A DNA stretch of 64,000 nucleotides from NCBI GenBank assembly GCA_030725745.1, contig JANRFH010000047.1, positions 1 through 64,000 of the forward strand. The letters are read 5' to 3'. The stretch is from Akkermansiaceae bacterium (GTDB taxonomy: Bacteria; Verrucomicrobiota; Verrucomicrobiia; Verrucomicrobiales; Akkermansiaceae). Each line of letters opens with the position of its first letter. The first letter of the stretch is position 1. The notes beneath the pieces are model-generated. The model was not told where the DNA came from. It was given only the letters and a program-made list of their open reading frames with translations, and ran no database searches. A program made the translations under genes and the position numbers. Below, piece by piece: positions 6,444 through 37,674 of this stretch.

Positions 6444-8876
6444 TCACATTCGCTTCATCAGTTGACCGCCGTTTTTTCCTCCGCCGGGGCCGAGGGTGAT
6501 GAGGTGGTCTGCGGTGACGATGACATCGGGGTGGTGCTCGATGATGATGATGGAATGGCCTGCGTCGCGGAGTTTGAAGATGGCTTTGAGGAGTTTCTCG
6601 ACATCGCCGAAGTGGAGGCCGGTGGTGGGCTCGTCGAAGAGGTAGAGGGTGTGGGGAGAGCTGGGTTTGGAAATTTCTAGGGCGAGCTTGAGGCGCTGGG
6701 ATTCACCGCCGGAGAGGGTGTTTCCTGCTTGGCCGAGGGCGAGGTAGCCGAGGCCGAGTTCTTCCATGGTGTTTAGGAGTCGGTAGAGCTTTGGGATGGG
6801 GCGGAAGTGGGCTTTTGCCTCGGAGATGGACATGGCGAGGATGTCGGCGATGGATTTTCCTTTGTAGGTGATTTCTAGGGTTTCGCGATTGAAACGTTTG
6901 CCGAGGCAGGCGGGGCATTCCGTCCATGCATCGGGGAGGAAGTGCATTTCGATTTTGAGTTTGCCGTTGCCTTGGCAGCGTTCGCAGCGACCACCTTTGG
7001 CGTTGAAAGAGAAGCGGGCTTTTTTGTAGCCGCGTTGTTTGGCGAGGGGGAGCTTGGTGAAAAGATCGCGTATGAGATCGAAGGCTCCAATGAAGGTGGC
7101 GGGATTTGAGCGCGGGGAGCGGCCGATGGAGGATTGGTCTGCGAGGACGAATTTCTCGATGTGTTCGAGGCCGGTGATGGAGTCGTGGGAGCCGGGTTCT
7201 TCCTTGGAGTTGTGAAAGTGTTTGGCGAGGGCTTTGGCGAGGATGCCGTTGACGAGGGTGGATTTTCCAGAGCCGGAGGGGCCGGAAATGACGGTGACCT
7301 GATTGAGGGGGATGGAGATGGTGAGATTCTGGAGGTTGTGTTCGCGGGCTCCGTGGATGGTGATTTTGGATTTTGGATTTTGAATTTTGGATTTTTTTGG
7401 GACGAAGCGGGGGATCTCGCCGCGTAGCCATTGGCCGGTGGGGCTTTGGATGGTGAGGGGGGGGCCATGGGCGAGGATTTCGCCGCCGGTGGCGCCAGCA
7501 CCGGGGCCCATGTCGATGAGGTGGTCGGCGGCGCGGATGATGTCTTCGTCGTGTTCTACTACGACCACGGTATTTCCGATGTCGCGAAGGCGGGTGATGG
7601 CGGCGATGAGGCGCGCGGTATCTGAGGAGTGGAGGCCGATGGATGGCTCGTCGAGGACGTAGATGACGCCGGAGAGGCCAGCTCCGAGTTGGGTGGCGAG
7701 TTTGATGCGTTGGACTTCCCCGCCGGAGAGGGTGCCGGATGAGCGGTCGAGGCTGAGGTAGTCGAGGCCGACGTCTTGGAGGAAGGTGAGGCGTTTTTCG
7801 ACTTCGGCGGCGAGGTCGGAGATGGGGGGCGGGCTGGTTTTTAGGAATGCGATCCAGGCTTTTGCTTCGGAGATTCCGAGTTGGCAGAATTGCATGATGC
7901 CGAGAGAGTGCCGAGTGATCAGTGAGCAGTGATCAGTGGGAGACTGCGGACTAAAGTCCGCGTTCCTTACTTTGACGTGTTGGAGTTCTTTTTTAAGACG
8001 GAGGTTTGAGCAGGTTTTGCAGCCTAGGCCTTCGCAATCTGGGCAGGCGCCTTCTAGGGTGTTGAAGGAGAAGTGGCGGGGGGAGAGGTCGCCGAAGATT
8101 TCGCCGGTGCGGGGGTTGCGGTAGGAGGTTTGGAAGGTGAGTTCGCGGTAGTCGGCGTCGCTGGGTTTCTGGAGGAGGACTTTGGCTTCGGCTCCGCAGA
8201 TGCGGAGGGCGAGTTCGATGGAGTCGGCGAGGCGGGAGTCGATGCCGGGGCGGATGACGAGGCGGTCGATGACGATTTCGATGTTCGGGGAGGAGGTGGG
8301 GTCGATTTCTGTTTCTGTGATTTCCTTTATTTCGCCGTTGATGCGGATGCGGATGAAGCCCTGGCGCTGGAGGTCACCGAGGAGGCGTTCGGGCTCGGCA
8401 ATTTCCTCTGCGGGGATGGCGGCGAGGATGATGAGTTTTGAGCCTTCGGGCTGGGCGGCGAGTTCAGTGATGATTTCTGAGGGCCCCATGCGGGTCATGG
8501 CTTCGCCGGTTTCGGGATCGTGGGGAACTCCGGCGGCAGCCCAGATGATACGGAGGTAATCGTAGATTTCGGTGGCGGAGGCGACGGTGGAGCGTGGGGA
8601 GAGTCCGCCGACGCGTTGCTCGATGGCGATGGCGGGGTTGAGGCCTTCGATGGAGTCGACGTCGGGTTTTTCGAGCTGGGAAAGGAACTGGCGGGCGTAG
8701 ACGGAGAGGGACTCGACGTAGCGGCGCTGGCCTTCGGCGTAGAGGGTGTCGAAAGCCAGTGAGGATTTCCCGGAGCCGGAGGGGCCGGTGATGACGGTGA
8801 GTTTCCCCTTGGGTATGGCGACCGTGAGGTTTTTCAGGTGATGCTGGCGGGCACCGCGGATGAGGATATCGGCCAT
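6444..8876 (-). CDS. uvrA: UvrA-type excinuclease ATPase, short form
   Basis: UvrA dimers scan DNA for bulky lesions and load UvrB. Two ABC cassettes are present: Walker [10 protein letters not shown] at 31-39 and GPSGSGKST at 532-540, each followed by an LSGGE signature. At 810 residues it is roughly 130 shorter than typical UvrA. The C-terminal zinc finger is normal (Cys 631, 634, 654, 657). The first zinc module is collapsed to Cys 278, 281, 286 and 289 with only four residues between the pairs, so most of the first insertion domain is gone. The UvrB-binding region (about 115-245) is recognisable but reads HDPETG where HCPxCG is usual. Two repeat-derived segments are in frame (about 304-322 and 494-504). 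It may be a paralogue of a full-length UvrA elsewhere. No uvrB is in the window. Confidence 0.9.
7367..7398. repeat. Repeat-like insert in uvrA encoding [11 protein letters not shown]
   Basis: T-rich tandem units TTTTGGATTTTGGA and TTTTGAATTTTGGA, in frame in the linker between the two ABC halves of uvrA. Composition differs sharply from the flanking GC-rich codons. Confidence 0.6.
7913..7938. repeat. Repeat-like insert in uvrA encoding [11 protein letters not shown]
   Basis: Two GTGATCAGTG units separated by AGCA (GTGATCAGTGAGCAGTGATC), each containing the palindrome TGATCA, in frame with uvrA. It abuts a second, unrelated palindromic unit at 7942-7966. Confidence 0.6.
7942..7966. repeat. 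Dispersed palindrome D, copy 1 (GCGGACTAAAGTCCGC)
   Basis: Hairpin GCGGACT-A-AAGTCCGC followed by GTTCC, in frame with uvrA where it encodes RNADFSPQS. The same layout (GCGG stem, A-rich centre, CCGC, then G-Y-TCC) recurs outside genes at 31871-31899 with compensated stem changes. Confidence 0.65.
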
Positions 8877-8883
8877 GTGTTGG

Positions 8884-8913
8884 AAACTTTAAATTTTAAA
8901 CTTTAAACCTCAA
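8884..8913. repeat. Dispersed AT repeat B, copy 1
   Basis: AAACTTTAAATTTTAAACTT followed by TAAACCTCAA, immediately upstream of uvrA. Near-identical strings are at 15451-15480, 29301-29340, 29361-29392 (inverted) and 31797-31838. Confidence 0.8.
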
Positions 8914-8950
8914 GGGTTTGGTTTTGGGGTGGGTGGGGTTGAGAGGATTT

Positions 8951-8990
8951 CAACGCAGAGACGCAGAGGTCGCGGAGGAGACGCAGAGCT
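8951..8990. repeat. Dispersed repeat C, copy 1 (CAACGCAGAGACGCAGAG type)
   Basis: CAACGCAGAGACGCAGAG, then GTCGCGGAGGAGACGCAGAG, in the gap between uvrA and the dehydrogenase gene. A related, interrupted copy is at 30358-30470. Confidence 0.75.
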
Positions 8991-9062
8991 AGGGTTGGTG
9001 GTTGTTATTTGTAGGTGGTTTTCTGTTGCGGTGGTGTTGTGATGCGGAGAGTTTAGATTGAA

Positions 9063-9950
9063 ATGAAAAAGCTGAAGATAGGATTTGTGGGAGCGGGGAG
9101 AATGGGATCGAACATGGCAAGGCGGCTGCATGACTTGGGTTATGATGTAGCGGTGATCCATGATCATCATTTGCCGGTGGCGGAGGCGATCGCAAGGGAG
9201 CTGGATGCGAAGGCGGTGGAGCCTTTGGCGGATGTGACGGCGGCGGCGGATGTGATTTTTACGGTGGTGACGGATGATAAGGCGATGGATGAGATTTTCT
9301 ACGGGGAGGATTCGTTGCTGGTGGGGGCGGAAGGGAAGCTTTTCATCAACTGTGCGACGGTGAGTCCGGAATCGCATGAGAAGGCGGCTGCGGCTGCGGA
9401 GAAGGTGGGCGCGAAGACCTTGGCGGCGAGTATGGCATCATCGATCACGCAGGCACGTGAGGGTACGTTATATCTGATGGTGGGCGGGGATGAGGTGGTT
9501 TTTTCGGAAAACGAGGCGCTGTTGAAGGATATTTCTGCGTCACTGAAGTTCGTGGGGCCGGTGGGAAATGCTGCGAAAATCAAGGCGCTGGTAAACATGG
9601 TGATGAACATCAATACGGCGGGGCTGGCGGAGGGGTTGGGGCTTGGAGACGCGCTAGGGATCGATCTAGATTTACTGCGGGAAGTATTTTCTCAGACGGG
9701 GGCAAACTCGCGGGTATTGGAGACGGATGCGGACGACATGGTGACGCGTGACCATGATTGCTTTTTCTCTGCGGCGCATGCGGCGAAGGATAGCGGGATT
9801 GCGAATGCGCTTGCGAAGGCTGCAGGGGTAAAGGTGCCGCTTTCAGCCGCGACAGAAAGCCAGTATCGTAAGCTGATCGGGCTGGATCGTGGTGGGCTGG
9901 ATAAATCGGCGGTGTCGGAACTGACTTTCAAGGGAAGAACGGAAGACTGA
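9063..9950 (+). CDS. NAD(P)-dependent beta-hydroxyacid dehydrogenase (HIBADH family)
   Basis: A 295-residue cytosolic oxidoreductase of the 3-hydroxyisobutyrate / tartronate-semialdehyde reductase family. The N-terminal Rossmann domain starts with GFVGAGRMG (residues 7-15). The catalytic lysine is K174 in K-A-L-V-N178, fitting the family's K-x3-N pattern. The usual substrate loop D-A-P-V-S-G-G is replaced by A-S-M-A-S-S, so the substrate cannot be named and may be unusual. The start ATG at 9063 follows GGAGAGTTTAGATTGAA. The gene is followed after four bases by an alpha/beta hydrolase on the same strand, so they are probably co-transcribed. Confidence 0.85.
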   Translation: MKKLKIGFVGAGRMGSNMARRLHDLGYDVAVIHDHHLPVAEAIARELDAKAVEPLADVTAAADVIFTVVTDDKAMDEIFYGEDSLLVGAEGKLFINCATVSPESHEKAAAAAEKVGAKTLAASMASSITQAREGTLYLMVGGDEVVFSENEALLKDISASLKFVGPVGNAAKIKALVNMVMNINTAGLAEGLGLGDALGIDLDLLREVFSQTGANSRVLETDADDMVTRDHDCFFSAAHAAKDSGIANALAKAAGVKVPLSAATESQYRKLIGLDRGGLDKSAVSELTFKGRTED

Positions 9951-29360: not shown

Positions 29361-29392
29361 TGGAATTTAAAGTTTAGAGTTTAAGGTTTAAG
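29361..29392. repeat. Dispersed AT repeat B, copy 4, inverted
   Basis: GGAATTTAAAGTTTAGAGTT then TAAGGTTTAAGG, the reverse complement of the family. The gspK stop codon at 29388-29390 lies inside it. Confidence 0.75.
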
Positions 29393-30323
29393 GGATGATC
29401 TCGGTGGTGCGGTCGAGGAGGGCGGGCTTTCCGGTGCGGTTGCGGACGATGGCGGTGATGCGGCGTTTGGCATCGCCGGAGCGGGCGGTGGAGGTGATGC
29501 GTGTGGTGGTGTCTTCGTTGGTGAAACGCGAGGCAATTATCTGGCTGCTTTCGCCGCCGATGCCAAGGAGCGAAAGTGCGGAGGTGACATCTTGGAAGGG
29601 GACGTCGTCTTCGGTGTCGCGAATGCCATCGGTGCCACGCACTTTTTCCGGGATAATCTGTGCCTGCTCCACACCCACATCTGCGGCTACGGCGATGAGT
29701 TCTGCATCGGCTTCATTGATGTCGAGGGAACCTGCTGACCAGACGGTGAACCAATCACGCCAGTCGGGGCGGAGTTGCTCTACCTGATCCATGCCTATGA
29801 CGAGGCTCATTTCTGAGATGTCGTAGAAGGGGCGGTTGAAGGGCTGGTTGATGCGGCCGATGTTCTCATAATCGCCGGATTCTGCTCCGTTGAGGGCTTC
29901 CTCGTCATCGGCATCGACCCAATCGGTCATCGCGTCGGTGAGGGCTTGGGCGGAATCGAGGTCTAGGCCCCACTCGATGAAGATGGAGCGAATGAGGGTT
30001 TTGTCTTCGGAGAGGACGAGGGAGTTGATGTTGAAGCGTGCTCCCTCTGAGGTGAGGGTGACGTGGATCTCTTCGTTATTTTCCTCATCGAAGCGGTGGA
30101 GGATGGGGTCGTCGCGATCGACAACGGGGTTTGAGCCGATGGCGATGCCCATTTCCGCGAGCTGGAAGGCGCGGGAGCCGTGGACTTTCGCGGTGGCGAT
30201 TTCCATATCAAAGGAAATGACGCGGAGTGTGGTGATGGCGGAAAGGGAGAGAATCGCAATAAGCCACAACACGGCGATCAGGGCGACGCCGGGCTTGTTG
30301 TCTGGTGCGGGGTGGGGTTTCAT
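29388..30323 (-). CDS. gspK: Minor pseudopilin GspK-like protein
   Basis: A 311-residue protein with a short basic leader (MKPHPAPDNKPG) then VALIAVLWLIAILSLSAIT, a class III signal anchor without Glu at +5, as is typical of GspK. The large helical/globular domain contains FNINSLVLSED, LTDAMTDWVDADDEE, YDISEMSLV and LDINEADAELIAV, all recognisable GspK landmarks. GspK caps the pseudopilus tip with GspI and GspJ. It lies 183 bases downstream of gspJ, with repeat C between them. Confidence 0.88.
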   Translation of the reverse strand: MKPHPAPDNKPGVALIAVLWLIAILSLSAITTLRVISFDMEIATAKVHGSRAFQLAEMGIAIGSNPVVDRDDPILHRFDEENNEEIHVTLTSEGARFNINSLVLSEDKTLIRSIFIEWGLDLDSAQALTDAMTDWVDADDEEALNGAESGDYENIGRINQPFNRPFYDISEMSLVIGMDQVEQLRPDWRDWFTVWSAGSLDINEADAELIAVAADVGVEQAQIIPEKVRGTDGIRDTEDDVPFQDVTSALSLLGIGGESSQIIASRFTNEDTTTRITSTARSGDAKRRITAIVRNRTGKPALLDRTTEIIP

Positions 30324-30357
30324 CTCGGTTTCTGGGGATTTAAACGCTGGGGATTTT

Positions 30358-30470
30358 CAACGCAGAGGCGCAAAGCAGAATGAGCGATAGCGAATATTAG
30401 ATATGGGCGAAGACGTAACTGCTTGGACGGAGCGTGGCGTAGTCAAAGGTCGCGGAGAAGGCGCAGAGCT
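30358..30470. repeat. Dispersed repeat C, copy 2, interrupted by 68 bases
   Basis: The left part CAACGCAGAGGCGCAAAG (30358-30375) and right part CAAAGGTCGCGGAGAAGGCG onward (30444-30470) match copy 1 at 8951-8990 but are separated by 68 bases. The pentamer CAAAG stands on both sides of the extra DNA (30371-30375 and 30444-30448). Confidence 0.6.
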
Positions 30471-30506
30471 TGGGTTTAGGGATAATGAGGTATAGGGGAT
30501 GGGTTT

Positions 30507-31378
<872 letters not shown>

Positions 31379-31382
<4 letters not shown>

Positions 31383-31795
31383 GGCTGGTACATGAGGTTG
31401 TAGCGCCACGTTTCAGCGGAGCGGGATTGCCATGCGCCGTTTTGGAACCAGTTTGCGGTGACGGTGATGTGAAACATTTCTTGGAGGAACTCACCGTCTT
31501 GGTTGGTCATTTCTTCGAGCGGAACGATGATAACATCGAGTTCGATCTCAGTGCCTTCTACGGGGATCTGGTAGACTCCTTCCTCGACGGTGGGAAAAGA
31601 GAGCTGCTCGGTGAGCGCGGAATCAAGGATGCGGTTGATGCGTAGCTCGGTCTGGGCAAGGCTGGCGGCGTCTGCCATGCGGTGGAAGGCTACGGTGAGG
31701 CCGGTGCAGGCGATGGCGAAGATGCCGAGGGCTAGGACGACCTCTAGGAGGAGGAAGCCTTTTTTTGAATCGGGAGCTGGAGGGGTGGTGCGCAG
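31379..31795 (-). CDS. gspI: Minor pseudopilin GspI-like protein, probable non-ATG start
   Basis: The pseudopilin N-terminus reads KKGFLLLEVVLALGIFAIACTGL, with Glu5 and the Gly cleavage site, then MADAASLAQTELRIN and a small beta domain (WQSRSAETWRYNLMYQP at the end). The first in-frame ATG (31678) would remove the whole assembly helix. The open frame upstream has no ATG, GTG or TTG before its stop at 31808-31810. The CTG at 31793-31795 (then R-T-T-P-P-A-P-D-S-K-K-G) is the best available start and gives 138 residues. An AT repeat directly upstream may have displaced the original start. A frameshift in the A7 run before Gly is the alternative. Confidence 0.7.
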
Positions 31796-31796
31796 A

Positions 31797-31838
31797 AACT
31801 TTAAGTTTTAAATTTTAAACCTCCAATGAAGAGAGGGT
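31797..31838. repeat. Dispersed AT repeat B, copy 5
   Basis: AAACTTTAAGTTTTAAATTT then TAAACCTCCAATGAAGAGAG, directly upstream of the gspI reading frame. It is closest to copy 3 and shares the TCAATGAAGAG-like end. Confidence 0.8.
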
Positions 31839-31870
31839 AGTGAGAGAGGTCTTTGGTGAAGGCGAGGTGT

Positions 31871-31899
31871 TAGAAAGCGGGTTGAAAACCCGCGCTCCA
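31871..31899. repeat. Dispersed palindrome D, copy 2
   Basis: AGCGGGTT-GA-AAACCCGCGCTCC, directly after the gspH stop. Compared with copy 1 (7942-7966) the stem bases differ but pairing is kept. It could also serve as a weak terminator or processing hairpin. Confidence 0.6.
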
Positions 31900-31902
31900 T
31901 AT

Positions 31903-32517
31903 TTAATTTGCTTCTAGTTCGGAATCGGCGATGGCGGCGGTGAGGGGGTGGTAGGTGTCTTGGGCGTAGCTGTCACCGACGGTGAGGCGGACGGTGAGGG
32001 GCTCGGAGAGGCCTTCGGGGTCGAAACGCCAGATGGGGATGAGATTGTCCGAGGGGGTGACGAAATCTTCGGTGTTCCAGCGGCGGATGGTGAGGGTGAG
32101 ATCGGGGTCGATCTCGACTTTATCGCGGAGTTGAGGTTTGGCGTTTTCGCTGTCGGAAATGGTGCCGCCGATTTCGTTGCCGAGGGCTGTGGTGCGCTCG
32201 AATTCTGAAGCCTCGGAAAGTGGCAGAAGCTGGATGAATCCCTGATGGAACTCGATGGCGTAGGGAGTCTGATGAAGGATGGCAGCCGTGCGTGCCCTCT
32301 TGGCGAGGAGCTCGATATCTCCGGAGGCGACGGTGAGCTTGTGTTGTGAAGAGGCGAGCACAACGGTGGCTATAGCACCACCGATGATGAGGCCGGAGAT
32401 GGCTAGAACGATGACGATTTCGAGGAGGGTGAAACCTTTGGGGAACGTCGAACATCGAACGTCCAATGCTGAACGTCGGAAGGAAGAAAATTTCCTAATC
32501 CTGGGAGGACATGTCAT
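31903..32517 (-). CDS. gspH: Minor pseudopilin GspH-like protein
   Basis: About 204 residues from the ATG at 32517, which overlaps the last 23 bases of gspG. The assembly helix KGFTLLEIVIVLAISGLIIGG has Glu5 and the cleavage Gly. The domain after it (LAKRARTAAILHQTPYAIEFH, PIWRFDPEGLSEPLTVRLT) is GspH-like. The leader before Gly is unusually long, about 33 residues, and contains LDVRCSTF encoded by repeat A. A TTG at 32466 inside the repeat would give a shorter, more normal leader, so the start is uncertain. Confidence 0.85.
   Translation of the reverse strand: MTCPPRIRKFSSFRRSALDVRCSTFPKGFTLLEIVIVLAISGLIIGGAIATVVLASSQHKLTVASGDIELLAKRARTAAILHQTPYAIEFHQGFIQLLPLSEASEFERTTALGNEIGGTISDSENAKPQLRDKVEIDPDLTLTIRRWNTEDFVTPSDNLIPIWRFDPEGLSEPLTVRLTVGDSYAQDTYHPLTAAIADSELEAN
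32443..32478. repeat. Dispersed repeat A, copy 2
   Basis: GAACGTCGAACATCGAACGT then CCAATGCTGAACGTCG, overlapping the 5' part of gspH, where it encodes SALDVRCSTF. It matches 3348-3387 at most positions. Confidence 0.8.
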
Positions 32518-32923
32518 CTTCCGTGCCTTCCTGTTGGTCGGGACCCCATGTGTAGATCTCGAAGGTGCTGGCATCCTTCTTGCCGGGGTTACGGTATTTG
32601 TAAGGGATGCCCCATGGGTCTTTCGGGACTTCTTTACCTGCGCTCGACCAGCGTTTCGGGACGGGGGCGGAAGTGGGTTTTACGAAAAGGGCTTCGAGGC
32701 CTTGCTGGGTGGTCGGGGCGGTGCCTGCGAGCATTTTGTAAGACGAGACCGCCGAGCTGATGCTGTTGAAATCGCCTTCGACACGCTGGATTTTGGCACC
32801 GTCGCCAAGTTTTCCGAGCATGGCGATGGAGCCGCCCATGATGATGCCGATGATGCCGAGGACGATGACGATTTCGAGGAGGGTGAATCCGGAGTTTTTC
32901 CGGTGCTTTGCTGTGGTTTTCAT
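32495..32923 (-). CDS. gspG: Major pseudopilin GspG
   Basis: 142 residues from the ATG at 32923 (MKTTAKHRKNSG). Cleavage after Gly exposes FTLLEIVIVLGIIGIIMGG with Glu5. The body has QRVEGDFNSISSAVSSYKM, then DPWGIPYKYRNPGKK and the C-terminal acidic calcium loop GTEDDMSSQD, all hallmarks of the major pseudopilin. It is the first pseudopilin of the G-H-I-J-K series and begins 55 bases after the PBP gene on the same strand. Confidence 0.95.
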   Translation of the reverse strand: MKTTAKHRKNSGFTLLEIVIVLGIIGIIMGGSIAMLGKLGDGAKIQRVEGDFNSISSAVSSYKMLAGTAPTTQQGLEALFVKPTSAPVPKRWSSAGKEVPKDPWGIPYKYRNPGKKDASTFEIYTWGPDQQEGTEDDMSSQD

Positions 32924-32978
32924 GGTTCTGGGATTGGAATGCCGCTGGGGCGGGTTGTTGTTTGAAAGAATTGATAGG

Positions 32979-35303
32979 TTAATCGACGCGCCCAGCACGA
33001 AGCGGTGGTTCTACGACGGGTTCGGCTTTAAGGATAGCTGAATCTTCTTCGACGCGTTGGGCTTTTGGAGGGTCGTTGCGGCGAGGTGCCGGAGGGGTGT
33101 AGTCCTCATCGATTGGGACGGCCTTGACCGGGTGGATAGGGCAGAAATCGCCGGGTTCTGGCGCGGTATCGCCGGGGACTTCGTCCGCGTAGGCGGTTCC
33201 GTTGTCGCGGCAGGCTTGAGTCGCGCGTTTGCCGGAGTTGCGGCAGAGTTCGATGGTTTGGAGGTTGACGTTCGAATGGAGTTCGCCGGCTTTGTAGCCT
33301 AGGCGGTCGGCCGTTTTCATGAGATCCACCCAGACCGGGAGTGCGAGGGTCGAGCCGTAGCCGCCCTGAATGGTTTTTTTTGGCTGATCGAAGCCGACCC
33401 AGACGGAGCAGGTGAGTGTGGAGGAGTATCCTGCGAACCATGCGTCTTTGAAATCGTTGGTGGTTCCGGTTTTTCCAGCGGCAGGCTTGGTGTAGCCGAG
33501 GCGTTTCATGGAGGCTGCGGTGCCGGAGGTGGCGACTTCTTGAAGGATTTTCGAGACTGACCATGCAGAGCCGCCGGAAGTCGCCTGATAGGGGAGGGCG
33601 GGGGTGGTGTAGAGGGTGTTGCCAGCGCGGTCTTTGATTTCAGAAATGAGGTAGGGGCGGAAGCGCTTTCCATCGTTGGGGAAAATGGTGTAGGCGGTAG
33701 CGACTTCCCACGGGCTGGCCTCCCATGTGCCGAGGAATGAGGCGGGGAATTCCGGCATTGCCTGGCCGAAGCCTGCCATGCGCGAGACTTCTTTCACGGA
33801 GGAGACTCCGGCGTAGTTTCCTACGCGGACGGACATGGTGTTGCGTGAGCGGATGAGGCCGTATGAGGCGGGGAACATGCCTCCGAATTTCCCGTCGGAG
33901 TTGTTCGGGCGCCAGCTTGAGGCTCCTTTGATTTCACCGCTGCGTATTGGGCCGTCGGAAATGGTGGTGGAGGGTCGCATGCCTTTGTCGAAGGCGGCGA
34001 GATAGACGAAGGGCTTGAAGATCGAGCCGATCTGGCGGCGTGCTTGGATGGCGCGGTTAAACTGAGATTCATTGGCGTCACGACCACCGATGAGTGCGAT
34101 GACGGCACCCGAGCGGTTGTCGATGAGGACGGCTGCACCTTGGATGTATTCCGGGTCTTTGCGTGTCTCTTCTGGCGAGTTTTGCCATGCGGCGCGTGTC
34201 TGGTGTGGGTAGCCGGAGCTGCGTTCAGTTTCGCGGAGTTTTTTATCGAGCGCTTCTTCTCCTACTTTCTGGAGGCGTTGGTCGATGGTGGTGATGATCG
34301 TCAGGCCGCCGAGTTCGATGTTTTCCTTTTCGAGGATGATTTCAAGGTCGCGGCGAACGGCGTCCATGGCGTATGAGGCGTCGTAATCGCGGCGCCATGC
34401 TGGGCGGACGGTGATCGGCTCGGCCTTCGCGGCGTCGGCCTCGGCTTGGGTGATTTTTTCCGCTGTGACCATGCGTGCGAGCGTGGTGTTGCGCTCGCGT
34501 TCAGCGGCTTCCATGGAGCGGAAGGGATTGAAGGCATCGGGGCCGCGTACGATGCCGGCCATGAGTGCGGATTCTGATAGGGTGAGTTGTGAAGGGTGTT
34601 TTTCGAAATAGATACGTGATGCCTCGCCGACGCCCTTGATCTGGCGACCCCAGTTGATCTGATTCACGTAGGCTTCGAGAATCTTGTCTTTGGAAAGGGC
34701 GGATTCGATTCGAAAGGCGATGGCAATTTCGAGGCATTTTCGGTCGAGTTGGCGGGGAAGGTCGCCGCGTTTTTCGCCGCGCTTGAGCCCGAAGACATCG
34801 GAAGCGAGTTGCTGGGTGATGGTGGAGGCACCCTCGCGTTTTCCTTCTAGGTTTTTAAGAAATGCACGCCCGATACCGATGATGTCGATGGCTCCGTGTG
34901 AGTAGAAGCGCTCATCTTCGCGGGCGAGGATGGCTTTGCGGAAATCTTCGGCGACCTCGTTGAGGAGGAAGATTTCGCGTTTTTCGCCGTGGATGCGCCC
35001 GATTTCCTCACCTTGGCGGTCGAGGATGATGGTTCGCTCCGGCATTTGGTTGAGCTTATTGAGATCGTAGCTGGCTGAGCGGAAGCCATAGATCACGGCA
35101 AGAATTCCGCCCAGGCAGAGTCCGGCGACTGCGGGGACACCGATCAAGCGTGCGAAGAAACGGACGGGCCAGGACATTCCTCGCGTCACGGCGAATAGCA
35201 GGTGGAAAGGCCACAGGAGTAGTAGAGAGAGCGGATTCGACGAACGACGGGATCTGGATTCCGTTTCGCGGGGTTTGTTCGACTGTTGTTTGCGTTTTGC
35301 CAT
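32979..35303 (-). CDS. Class A penicillin-binding protein (PBP1A type), complete
   Basis: A bifunctional peptidoglycan glycosyltransferase/transpeptidase of 774 residues. A basic N-terminus and membrane helix precede the GT51 domain (EDERFYSHGAIDIIG, EGASTITQQLA, VNQINWGRQIKG). The transpeptidase domain has all three motifs: S427-I-F-K430, S486-R-N488 and K611-T-G613. The tail is Pro/Glu-rich. The ATG at 35303 (MAKRKQQSNK) is used; the open frame to 35786 is not family-like and overlaps the divergent protease gene. It lies directly upstream of the pseudopilin genes. Confidence 0.93.
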   Translation of the reverse strand: MAKRKQQSNKPRETESRSRRSSNPLSLLLLWPFHLLFAVTRGMSWPVRFFARLIGVPAVAGLCLGGILAVIYGFRSASYDLNKLNQMPERTIILDRQGEEIGRIHGEKREIFLLNEVAEDFRKAILAREDERFYSHGAIDIIGIGRAFLKNLEGKREGASTITQQLASDVFGLKRGEKRGDLPRQLDRKCLEIAIAFRIESALSKDKILEAYVNQINWGRQIKGVGEASRIYFEKHPSQLTLSESALMAGIVRGPDAFNPFRSMEAAERERNTTLARMVTAEKITQAEADAAKAEPITVRPAWRRDYDASYAMDAVRRDLEIILEKENIELGGLTIITTIDQRLQKVGEEALDKKLRETERSSGYPHQTRAAWQNSPEETRKDPEYIQGAAVLIDNRSGAVIALIGGRDANESQFNRAIQARRQIGSIFKPFVYLAAFDKGMRPSTTISDGPIRSGEIKGASSWRPNNSDGKFGGMFPASYGLIRSRNTMSVRVGNYAGVSSVKEVSRMAGFGQAMPEFPASFLGTWEASPWEVATAYTIFPNDGKRFRPYLISEIKDRAGNTLYTTPALPYQATSGGSAWSVSKILQEVATSGTAASMKRLGYTKPAAGKTGTTNDFKDAWFAGYSSTLTCSVWVGFDQPKKTIQGGYGSTLALPVWVDLMKTADRLGYKAGELHSNVNLQTIELCRNSGKRATQACRDNGTAYADEVPGDTAPEPGDFCPIHPVKAVPIDEDYTPPAPRRNDPPKAQRVEEDSAILKAEPVVEPPLRAGRVD

Positions 35304-35431
35304 GAGGGGGTGCCCGGGAGGAAGATACGGGGAAAAACGGAAGATCAAACCCCAAACTTTTGTATCGTTGAACCTATTTTGGTCACAAATCGCTAGACGA
35401 AACGGGGATATTGCACCGATTGTAAAATGTA

Positions 35432-36418
35432 ATGAAAATACTGATTTCCTTCCTGGCGCTGTTGTTGTGCCAGATTTCTCTCCAAGCACGGGAGCCTTCT
35501 GCGACGCTGGTTGATCTAAAAAACCTTGAGGCCAAGGTGAGTGCCGTGGCTGAAAAAACCATGCCAGCCACGGTTGCGCTTGTCTCCAATAGCAACGGCT
35601 CGTCCGGATCTGGGGTGATTGTTTCGAAGGATGGGCTGATACTGACAGCTGCGCACGTGATTCAGGGTATGAAAGAGGTGGATGTGTATTTTTCCGATGG
35701 GAAGAAGTGGCTGGGCAAGGTGCTGGGTGCGAATTATTCCAAGGACATCGGCATGGTGCAGATGGTCGAGGAGGGGCCGTGGCCATATGTCGATCTCGGG
35801 GAATCGAAGCCTCTTGAGGCTGGTGACTGGCTTGTGGCTCTGGGGCACTCGGCTGGATTTGATCCGGCGCGGACTCCTCCGGTGAGGTTCGGGCGTGTGA
35901 TGTCTGACGGTCCCGGAAATTATTTTACCACAGACTGCACGCTGATTGGTGGGGACTCAGGTGGGCCATTGTTTGATCTGGATGGGAAGCTGGTAGGGGT
36001 AAATTCCTCGATCGGTGAGTCGTGGAAAAATAATAATCATGCGGGTGTGGATGGTTTTAAGCAGGATTGGGAGAGGTTGCTGGCGGGAGAGGCATGGGGG
36101 ACATTGCAGATGAACCCGCTGGCGAATCAGGAGCGACCAGTGCTGGGAATTGGCATGGGAACTCTGCCACGCGGTGTGCGGGGTGTGCTGGTGGATAAAG
36201 TGGAGCCAAACGCTCCGGCGGCAGCGGCAGGTGTGCGGGTGGGCGATATTATCAAGACTGTCGATGGCGAGGTGATTCGGGAGGGTTCCGAATTGCTTGA
36301 GATCATCGTGAAACACGAGGCCGGTGATGTGGTAGAGCTCGGGATTTTGCGCGTTAAAGATTTCATGCTAATCAAGGTGGAGTTGATGAAAACCGAAGAC
36401 CTTTTCAAAACACGATGA
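35432..36418 (+). CDS. Periplasmic HtrA/DegP-type serine protease with one PDZ domain
   Basis: A 328-residue exported protease with signal peptide (MKILISFLALLLCQISLQA). The trypsin-like domain has an intact triad: H75 in TAAHV, D105 in KDIGMV and S176 in GGDSGGP. One PDZ domain follows (residues about 225-320, with GVRGVLVDKVEPNAPAAAAG and GDIIKTVDGE). This suits removal of misfolded periplasmic proteins. It is divergent from the PBP gene. Its TGA stop overlaps the ATG of the next, protease-like gene (ATGA at 36415-36418), so the two are translationally coupled. Confidence 0.9.
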   Translation: MKILISFLALLLCQISLQAREPSATLVDLKNLEAKVSAVAEKTMPATVALVSNSNGSSGSGVIVSKDGLILTAAHVIQGMKEVDVYFSDGKKWLGKVLGANYSKDIGMVQMVEEGPWPYVDLGESKPLEAGDWLVALGHSAGFDPARTPPVRFGRVMSDGPGNYFTTDCTLIGGDSGGPLFDLDGKLVGVNSSIGESWKNNNHAGVDGFKQDWERLLAGEAWGTLQMNPLANQERPVLGIGMGTLPRGVRGVLVDKVEPNAPAAAAGVRVGDIIKTVDGEVIREGSELLEIIVKHEAGDVVELGILRVKDFMLIKVELMKTEDLFKTR

Positions 36419-37674
36419 AGACTTCCGACACGATAAAATGGATAGCGTTGCTTGTTGGGCTTTCGTCGCTCGCTCCGGCGCAGCGCCAACGTTTTGCTTT
36501 TCCTGAAGAGAGCCAGGAGGAGCAAGAAGAGGTGCCTTTGATGAGGCCGGATGAGTTGGAAGCGGTCAACGGACAGTCCGACGATTTCAATAACGCGCTC
36601 GAGCCGACACTCAGCGAGGCTGCAGAATCGACTGTGGTGGTATGGGGCACGAGGGGGCGCAAGCCGAGTAAGCTCGCCTACGGAACCGTGGTCGGTGATG
36701 GCTCTCAGGTTCTGACAAAATGGAGCGAGATTGAGCCTTCGGCAGACATTCTGTATGTGCAAACGGGTGGCGGAGTAGAAAGAAAAGCAACGGTCACGGG
36801 AGTTTTTGCGGAGGAGGATTTGGCGTTGCTACAAGTTGATGGAGATGCTCTGAAGCCTGTGAAATTCGAGGCAGGTGATCTGTCGCTGGGACGTTTCATC
36901 ACGGCGACACAGCCGAATGGTAAGCCAGCGGGGTTCGGCGTAGTGGCTGTTCTCGAGAGGAATCTTCGGGAAACGGATCAGGCGCATCTTGGCGTGGAAG
37001 TGGATCCGAATTTCCGGGGAAAGGGAGTGAGGATCGCTAACGTGCAACCGGAATACGGAGCAGAGGAGGCTGGCTTGCAATCGGGTGATGTGATTCTAGC
37101 GGTGGAAGGTCGCGCTATTTCCGGGCTTCAGGAATTAAAGAACGCACTTACGAACAAGCAGCCGGGCGATACAGTGGAACTTCTGATCGATTCCGCAGGG
37201 AAGGAAATGACCGTTTCTGTTCTACTCTCAAATCGCCCTGTGACCGGTCAGTTTTCTGGAGATCGCTTGAACCAGATGGAAGCGATGGGTGGTGAACTCA
37301 ACTCAGTTCGTGACGGTTTTTCGCGTGTGATTCAGACAGATATGAAAATCGCCTTTAACCAGATGGGTGGCCCCGTCGTGGATCTTCAGGGGCGCGTGGT
37401 TGGTATCACGATGGCACGTGCAGACCGCACCCGCACCTACATCATGGGTAGCGGAGCCTTGCTTAAAATATTGGCGGGCGAGCCAGGATCTGTAGCGGAT
37501 GCAAAAGCGAAGGCGGAGCTAAAAAAGGAGCAACTCGCCGAGCAGCGGCGAGCCATGATCCCCCAGATGCGCGGGCGTGCGAAGCCACAGGATCGGCAGA
37601 GAATGCAAAGAAATCTCAGTGACCTTGAACGCCTGCTGGGCAAGGTGAGCGACGAGCTAGAAGATCTAGACTGA
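36415..37674 (+). CDS. Degenerate HtrA-like protein with PDZ inserted in the protease fold
   Basis: A 419-residue exported protein (signal peptide ending L-A-P-A-Q). Residues 70-165 match the first half of a trypsin-like domain, but the His position reads VLTKWSE (W103/S104); D135 in EEDLALL is kept. Residues 180-275 are a PDZ domain (LGVEVDPNF, VQPEYGAEEAGLQSGDVILAV). The second protease half comes only after it: IQTDMKIAFNQMGGPVVDLQG, with M317 where the catalytic Ser should be. The protein therefore cannot be a standard serine protease. The C-terminus is a basic coiled coil. Coupling to the active HtrA gene suggests a regulatory or chaperone partner (inference). I recall similar PDZ-interrupted proteins in PVC bacteria. 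Confidence 0.82.
   Translation: MKTSDTIKWIALLVGLSSLAPAQRQRFAFPEESQEEQEEVPLMRPDELEAVNGQSDDFNNALEPTLSEAAESTVVVWGTRGRKPSKLAYGTVVGDGSQVLTKWSEIEPSADILYVQTGGGVERKATVTGVFAEEDLALLQVDGDALKPVKFEAGDLSLGRFITATQPNGKPAGFGVVAVLERNLRETDQAHLGVEVDPNFRGKGVRIANVQPEYGAEEAGLQSGDVILAVEGRAISGLQELKNALTNKQPGDTVELLIDSAGKEMTVSVLLSNRPVTGQFSGDRLNQMEAMGGELNSVRDGFSRVIQTDMKIAFNQMGGPVVDLQGRVVGITMARADRTRTYIMGSGALLKILAGEPGSVADAKAKAELKKEQLAEQRRAMIPQMRGRAKPQDRQRMQRNLSDLERLLGKVSDELEDLD

Follow-up and report, generated by a model that had tools for sequence, protein, structure and literature searches.

A 64,000-nt stretch of an Akkermansiaceae bacterium genome (contig JANRFH010000047.1; hereafter, the window) carries two adjacent plus-strand genes encoding a catalytically intact HtrA and a dead relative with an architecture of which we found no description in the open-access literature searched. 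The first protein, designated AC (the active HtrA partner, window protein P0001; 328 aa; 35432–36418), is an HtrA-like serine protease, in which the protease domain (residues 26–222, 35507–36097; Trypsin_2 at 59–190 and family alignment) is followed by a C-terminal PDZ domain (residues 236–317, 36137–36382; PDZ_2 in Pfam). The second, designated PS (the dead partner, window protein P0002; 419 aa; 36415–37674), is a pseudo-protease in which a PDZ domain is inserted into loop L3 of the protease fold. Homologous pairs occur throughout parts of Verrucomicrobiota and Planctomycetota, and AC and PS almost certainly constitute an obligate functional pair. The presence of a PDZ domain inside the switch-on loop of a dead sister protein suggests a built-in sensor subunit.

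The fold of PS was examined by several approaches. Against a Pfam cut-off of 27.6 bits, Trypsin_2 matched AC with 92.6 bits and PS with 42.8 bits, the latter in two stretches, the better of which covered residues 90–173. A stretch of PS on the C-terminal side of the PDZ domain (approximately residues 300–339; IQTDMKIAFNQMGGPVVDLQGRVVGI) was aligned by phmmer with the nucleophile segment of a DegP-like protease of solved structure. AlphaFold2, supplied with a 60-sequence alignment of the window protein and those of 59 related loci (22–32% identical to P0002), produced a model with a mean predicted local distance difference test score (pLDDT) of 87.8 and a predicted template modeling score (pTM) of 0.72, the protease parts being mostly above 90. 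In this model, strands at residues 73–182 are followed by the PDZ domain (approximately 190–275), a helix (279–290), further strands (305–345), and a helical hairpin (360–418). When residues 60–362 were compared with solved structures, the best match was AlgW (7co7_D; Z 22.8, root mean square deviation 2.6, 187 residues aligned), with DegP (6jjk; Z 22.7) and PDZ-less DegS (2rce; Z 22.5, 182 residues aligned, in a chain of 198) close behind, in a ranking by VIA-align, which only re-ranks the matches from Foldseek. Because the model matches single HtrA protease domains, PS is, as modeled, one double barrel of the HtrA type, a loop of which accommodates a PDZ domain. The first protease part (barrel 1 and the start of barrel 2) comprises residues 56–182 (36580–36960), the inserted PDZ domain residues 190–275 (36982–37239; PDZ_2 at 191–270 in Pfam), and the second protease part (the rest of barrel 2) residues 286–352 (37270–37470). 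An earlier note on this DNA, made from the sequence alone, had proposed the order half protease, PDZ, half protease and had named a missing second barrel half as one of two findings that would speak against it; Pfam, phmmer, and the AlphaFold2 model with VIA-align agree on the proposed order, and the second half is present as strands 305–345. The HtrA/S1C arrangement with the PDZ domain C-terminal to the protease was found in most AC and not in PS; none of six proteins tested, including P0001 and P0002, scored as high as the cut-off of any NCBIfam model; TIGR02037 (Do/DegP) gave 152 bits for P0001 and 83 bits for P0002 (cut-off, 416), and the MamO model NF040961 gave 31 bits for P0002 (cut-off, 800).

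The conservation of both proteins was assessed in a main set from Verrucomicrobiota and Planctomycetota, consisting of 170 AC and 180 PS, of which 166 are unfused and 14 form one chain with an AC; trimming left 178 different PS sequences. Identical proteins, the 130-aa fragment L076, and 16 loci (L002–L008, L075, L078, L106, L110, L111, L114, L115, L117, and L119) that were repeats of other loci or matches to other proteins, such as L003, L005, L007, and L008, were left out of the counts, and 14 stretches fetched later because each might hold a fusion, an unusual frame, or a short AC stand outside the 180 PS. In the window PS, Ser104 (36724–36726) aligns with the catalytic His96 of DegS and Met317 (37363–37365) with the catalytic Ser, and the catalytic Asp is kept (D135). 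The earlier note, which called the protein a pseudo-protease, had named M317 and W103/S104; of the latter two, S104 is the His position and W103 the residue before it, and one catalytic residue, the Asp, is retained. Across the set, the His position of PS is Ser in 175 and Thr in 4 of 179 sequences (one of the 180 is truncated) and His in none, the Asp position is Asp in 179/180, and the nucleophile position is occupied by Cys (73), Val (35), Met (22), Ile (20), Ala (19), Thr (6), Glu (2), and Leu, Gln, or Asn (1 each), with Ser in 0/180. In AC, His, Asp, and Ser were each found in 170/170 sequences, corresponding to H75, D105, and S176 in the window. On these sequence grounds, PS is well supported as the inactive partner of an active HtrA, as the earlier note had supposed. 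Meanwhile, other residues of PS are nearly fixed: K102 (178/179), R182 (174/180), Q307 (169/180), D309 (174/180), G318 (180/180), and R338 (179/180), and K102, S/T104, D135, R182, Q307, and R338 are jointly kept in 164/178 sequences. A dead protein whose non-catalytic residues are near-invariant has therefore been selected for something else. An alternative active site in PS, such as a Ser-Lys dyad of K102 and S104, was considered and not adopted, as only conservation speaks for one. Chance or a gene-calling artefact is ruled out by the 180 homologs that share the PS architecture, and a frameshift or pseudogene in the window by the open frame and the non-catalytic residues that PS has in common with its relatives.

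The genes for AC and PS are closely associated. In the window, the intact AC gene ends within the start of the PS gene (ATGA, a 4-nt overlap), as previously noted. In the main set, 155/166 unfused PS genes had a same-strand AC gene no more than 400 nt away, which was upstream in 154 cases; in the remaining one (L104), PS precedes an AC-PS fusion that is cut off where the contig ends. Among the 11 unfused PS genes with no adjacent AC, 4 were at contig ends and 7 were orphans, and six of the seven orphan genomes contained an AC elsewhere (at least 306 bits), standing alone in the stretch fetched. Conservation of the two genes as neighbors, a check that the earlier note had suggested, is therefore borne out by adjacency, together with the fusions and co-occurrence described below. 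The genes overlapped in 94 pairs, by exactly 4 nt in 33/154 upstream pairs, and gaps separate them in others; each start was placed at the earliest possible codon, which makes these overlap counts an upper bound. The proposal that the overlap fixes the ratio of the two products is not established, given the gapped pairs and those that are unlinked. Seven of the 14 fusions in the main set retain the PDZ domain of AC and seven lack it; 8 of the 14 stretches fetched later hold further AC-PS fusions (L226–L230, L235, L237, and L239), and L238, also fetched later, is a fusion in the reverse order, PS then AC. The fused state required five parsimony changes on a FastTree tree of 178 PS, 14 of them fused, in which gain and loss were not distinguished.

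The spread survey covered both phyla. Among 288 Verrucomicrobiota genomes, PS (E ≤ 1e−20) and AC (at least 224 bits) were detected in the identical 31, and the best AC-model score among the sampled PS-less genomes was 195 bits. In genus g18, which is probably Akkermansia, both genes were present in 13 genomes and absent from nine (G063, G109, G126, G162, G194, G241, G248, G251, and G337), a pattern of joint loss or gain of the pairs. The nine genomes with neither gene were 97–99% complete and 2.2–2.7 Mb in size; the 13 pair-bearing genomes were 2.7–3.5 Mb. Among 199 Planctomycetota genomes, 60 had a match to the PS model (E ≤ 1e−20), which covered both protease parts in 31 (as one match or nearly so in 22, and split into two pieces of a single long frame in 9); the other 29 had only partial matches of at most 87 bits and were classed as other HtrA or PDZ proteins. 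AC was present in all 31 PS-bearing planctomycete genomes, listed separately in 30 and within the frame of PS in G392. In five genomes (G340, G450, G370, G482, and G539), both genes were present yet unlinked, on different contigs or megabases apart. The AC scores of the nine long fusions (181–203 bits) overlap those of PS-less planctomycete genomes (up to 187 bits), so in this phylum the rule that every AC is accompanied by a PS is valid only for scores above 200 bits (22/22 genomes).

The position of the inserted PDZ domain was determined by alignment with Escherichia coli DegS, DegQ, and DegP. The insert immediately follows Arg182 of PS (36958–36960), which aligns with DegS Arg178 and DegP Arg187, and it ends before a Q-T/H-D motif whose Gln corresponds to DegP Gln200; this places it in loop L3. 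Both relay residues are kept in PS by this alignment, at the frequencies given above for R182 and Q307. The PDZ domain lay between the protease halves in all 210 open reading frames (ORFs) with both PS halves, repeated loci included, and no PDZ-less PS was found among these 210; the search models contain the PDZ domain, so PDZ-less relatives could score lower. The insert holds one, two, or four PDZ domains: among the planctomycete AC-PS fusions, there are two in the loop of the dead half in L226–L228 and four in L229, and L226–L229 have extra PDZ domains between the AC and PS halves. (In the architecture tally, the 16 protease-PDZ-PDZ rows include two ordinary HtrAs, L222 and L223.) The PDZ domain of PS keeps the Leu-Gly-Val/Ile loop (Gly193 in 177/178), which corresponds to the loop that binds the carboxylate in PDZ domains of HtrA proteases. 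AC lacks a PDZ domain of its own in three unfused loci, in the four unfused group-B pairs fetched from genus g18, and in some fusions.

The insertion site coincides with a loop of known function in HtrA proteases. L3 has been described as a sensor loop that contacts loop LD of the adjacent protomer (PMC11252331). DegP Thr176, Arg187, and Gln200 have been named as an inter-monomer triad, and the equivalent L3 Arg of HtrA1 is described as exerting its effect on LD in the neighboring monomer (PMC5666011). L3 of AC looks approximately 8 residues shorter than in DegS, DegQ, and DegP: the Gly-to-Asp spacing, counted from Gly154 (DegS Gly171), was 12–14 in 166/170 AC and 18–21 in the other 4, compared with 22 in the three references (G154–D168 in the window, 35891–35935, spacing 14; the anchoring of this alignment is uncertain). 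The LD spacing was 16 in 170/170 AC and is 12 in DegS; an ordinary HtrA encoded in the same genome as the window, L005, has an L3 spacing of 20 with the Arg in place. In an AlphaFold model of the fusion L161, the AC half shows the strand VIRLGRILRA, a three-residue turn, and VIQT (pLDDT approximately 81–87 there), as a short L3 in AC predicts, and the equivalent of AC Arg152 lies inside the strand, before the turn. AC thus seems to have trimmed its own L3, so that sensing and cutting, which the HtrA relay usually links, would be divided between two kinds of subunit.

HtrA proteases are typically trimers. We propose that AC and PS assemble together as the active and non-catalytic subunits of one heteromeric HtrA-type envelope protease. 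The PDZ domain of PS would bind a peptide, for example, the C-terminal end of an envelope protein that is misfolded or has failed to assemble; binding would move L3 of PS, on the side of Arg182 and Gln307, and L3 would then contact loop LD of the neighboring AC subunit and order its active site. That trans help from a dead HtrA subunit is possible is indicated by HTRA1, in which a catalytically dead subunit restores activity in mixed trimers, thereby helping its neighbor (PMC11252331). The parts of this proposal deserve different degrees of confidence. From the sequence data, a physical AC-PS complex, with PS as the non-catalytic regulatory subunit, is probable. Activation of AC in trans by the L3-to-LD contact is more tentative, and we put it forward as a working explanation that may well be wrong. 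Equally tentative is the wider idea of a natural split-relay HtrA, in which a dead subunit, its L3 containing between one and four PDZ domains, is the dedicated trans switch of a loop-trimmed active subunit, possibly as a main envelope-stress protease design in parts of both phyla. The suggestion of the earlier note that PS gates substrates or regulates AC is plausible, and trans-activation through L3 is the form of it that we favor.

Several observations weigh against this proposal. The LD Thr of the DegP triad (Thr176) is not kept in PS, the corresponding position 171 being Thr in only 3/178. MAFFT aligned the invariant Arg152 of AC with DegS Arg178, and under that alignment AC would keep the sensor Arg and an L3 of normal length, at the cost of a gap in a core strand; moreover, DegS exceeds AC by only 4 residues in the combined length of LD and L3, and the Gln at the DegP Gln200 position is kept in some AC. 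In the L161 fusion model, both barrels were folded and their relative placement was not fixed (pTM 0.59; low confidence in the linker, residues 255–263), and the top inter-protein coupling scores for 169 pairs (effective number 119) were no better than those of six local pairing shuffles. Six of the orphan PS are unlinked to their AC, and the genome of the orphan L213 has no AC. Furthermore, inhibition of AC by PS, instead of activation, fits most of the same facts. We regard the pairing as strongly supported, and we infer the AC-PS contact and the direction of control.

The strongest of the other explanations, which we consider unlikely but worth keeping in view, is that PS is a substrate-recruiting or gating adaptor complexed with AC, with no relay from L3 to LD: its PDZ domain would capture C-termini and deliver or withhold substrates, or PS would inhibit AC until a peptide binds. 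The pairing evidence serves this explanation as well as ours, the variable number of PDZ domains (1, 2, or 4) is expected of a recruitment platform, and the Leu-Gly-Val/Ile loop is kept; however, an adaptor leaves unexplained why the PDZ domain sits at a constant site in L3 after a conserved Arg, why a dead protease retains Arg182 and Gln307, and why L3 of AC is apparently short. It is less probable still that PS is an oligomerization scaffold whose dead protease domain sets a trimer or higher assembly, like the inactive domain of plant Deg7. Although the AC-(PDZ)-PS fusions recall the active-inactive order of Deg7 and several PS have C-terminal helical hairpins or coiled-coil-like tails, a pure scaffold needs neither an inserted PDZ domain nor the conserved L3 and dead-site residues (164/178 jointly). 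The tails themselves are uneven: L084, L151, L159, and L193, which are PS or fusions, have long C-terminal extensions that are coiled-coil-like or rich in Lys, Pro, and Glu, and others have no tail.

We give little weight to the idea that the dead site now serves as a pocket for a ligand or a metal, as happened for metal in MamO, and that AC would be regulated through this pocket. MamO provides the precedent, and K102, S104, D135, and R338 lie by alignment at or near the former active site and are almost invariant, but the same residues may merely brace the fold. Finally, that PS is a functionless, decaying duplicate is suggested by nothing beyond its missing catalytic residues and is practically excluded by the conserved fold, the near-invariant non-catalytic residues, the co-occurrence in two phyla, and the fusions in two orders.

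Combinations of an active and a dead HtrA were known before. MamE and MamO, like AC and PS, are an active and a dead HtrA, are encoded in one genomic island, and the dead protein, whose active site is dispensable, is needed for proteolysis by the active one (PMC4794232). The accessible part of the same report describes no PDZ domain inside the MamO protease fold and records that no physical contact between MamE and MamO was detected (PMC4794232). MamE/MamO is confined to magnetotactic bacteria, whereas AC/PS occurs in Verrucomicrobiota and Planctomycetota. Plant Deg7 resembles the AC-PS fusions in that one chain contains an active and an inactive protease domain with PDZ domains, and its inactive domain has been reported to take part in trimerization; unlike PS, this eukaryotic protein has its PDZ domains between or after the protease domains, the algal row being PD-PDZ-PDZ-PDia-PDZ-PDZ (PMC3473262). 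The mixed trimers in which a dead HTRA1 subunit acts as a corrector offer a precedent for help to a neighbor, but they are engineered and the position of their PDZ domain is normal (PMC11252331).

PS shares with DegS, DegP, AlgW, and HTRA1 the protease fold and the positions of the L3 Arg and the Gln, and in those enzymes the PDZ domain is the peptide sensor. They are known as homo-oligomers of active subunits with the PDZ domain C-terminal to the protease domain; in AC/PS, by contrast, the roles would be shared by two proteins, and the PDZ domain is inserted in L3. No description of a PDZ domain inside an HtrA protease domain, or of a pair of the AC/PS type, was found in the accessible open-access texts. 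Among individual sources, a SpoIVB paper makes no mention of insertion, topology, or domain arrangement ("inserted" occurs only in its methods), a census of microbial PDZ domains mentions Planctomycetes but not inserted or inactive forms, an AlgW paper does not mention loop L3, and a 2024 review of the HtrAs of Gram-negative bacteria mentions no pseudo forms, heterotrimers, heterooligomers, inserted domains, or planctomycetes. The view that such a module had not been described thus stands, within this literature, for the PDZ-in-L3 architecture, but not for the combination of active and dead HtrAs, for which MamE/MamO and Deg7 are precedents.

As textbook examples of allostery, HtrA proteases are built of identical subunits that both sense and cut. 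In AC/PS, these two tasks seem to have been assigned to different proteins, which have stayed together across two phyla while the count of PDZ domains in one loop varied. The pair provides a direct test of L3 signaling to a neighboring subunit and a ready two-part protease switch, and it may be a stress-sensing system in bacteria for which little is known about quality control of the envelope.

The genome that contains the window has a second AC/PS pair on another contig (L009; AC, 8095–9114; PS, 7113–8138; minus strand), whose PS is 36% identical to P0002 over residues 85–344. The next gene on the same strand after this pair encodes a sigma-54 response regulator (pair and regulator gene together, C56, 5631–9114), and many genomes of the same genus as the window have two PS matches. 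A PS match (E ≤ 1e−10) was obtained in 53/59 genomes, comprising this genome and those of 58 relatives. In a scan of one genome per species (84,980 species) with a single peptide pattern, 173 relatives were found and 80 were kept; the pattern included N-I-A-R, so the conservation of A334 and R335 in those loci is biased and was not counted. The kept relatives belonged to Verrucomicrobiota (Verrucomicrobiales, Akkermansiaceae, and others) and Planctomycetota (Blastopirellula, Zavarzinella, Rhodopirellula, Pirellula, Gemmataceae, Phycisphaerales, and others), and one kept metagenome-assembled genome labeled Nealsonbacteria was taken as a case of mis-binning.

The remaining features of the window pair are a probable signal peptide in PS (residues 1–22, 36415–36480), judged by eye from the sequence, and the modeled C-terminal hairpin of PS (residues 360–418, 37492–37668), which is absent from the group-B paralogs aligned. 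The N-terminus of AC, inspected in the same way, probably is a signal peptide too. Neither the hairpin nor the second paralogous pair appeared in the earlier note. Comparison of neighboring genes revealed no third gene common to all AC/PS loci. A penicillin-binding-protein gene (transglycosylase/transpeptidase in Pfam; 32979–35786) adjoins the pair in the window, and, among 211 loci, related ORFs recur beside 11 others (L011, L014, L027, L028, L033, L074, L094, L097, L098, L107, and L112), three of which are from another family of the order; an old neighborhood or a link to the cell wall is possible. On the minus strand, the window also contains a type II secretion cluster (29388–32998) with T2SSG and T2SSK matches in Pfam, in which the ORF at 30507–31409 has a pseudopilin-type N-terminus and ends in a long Gly/Pro-rich tail.

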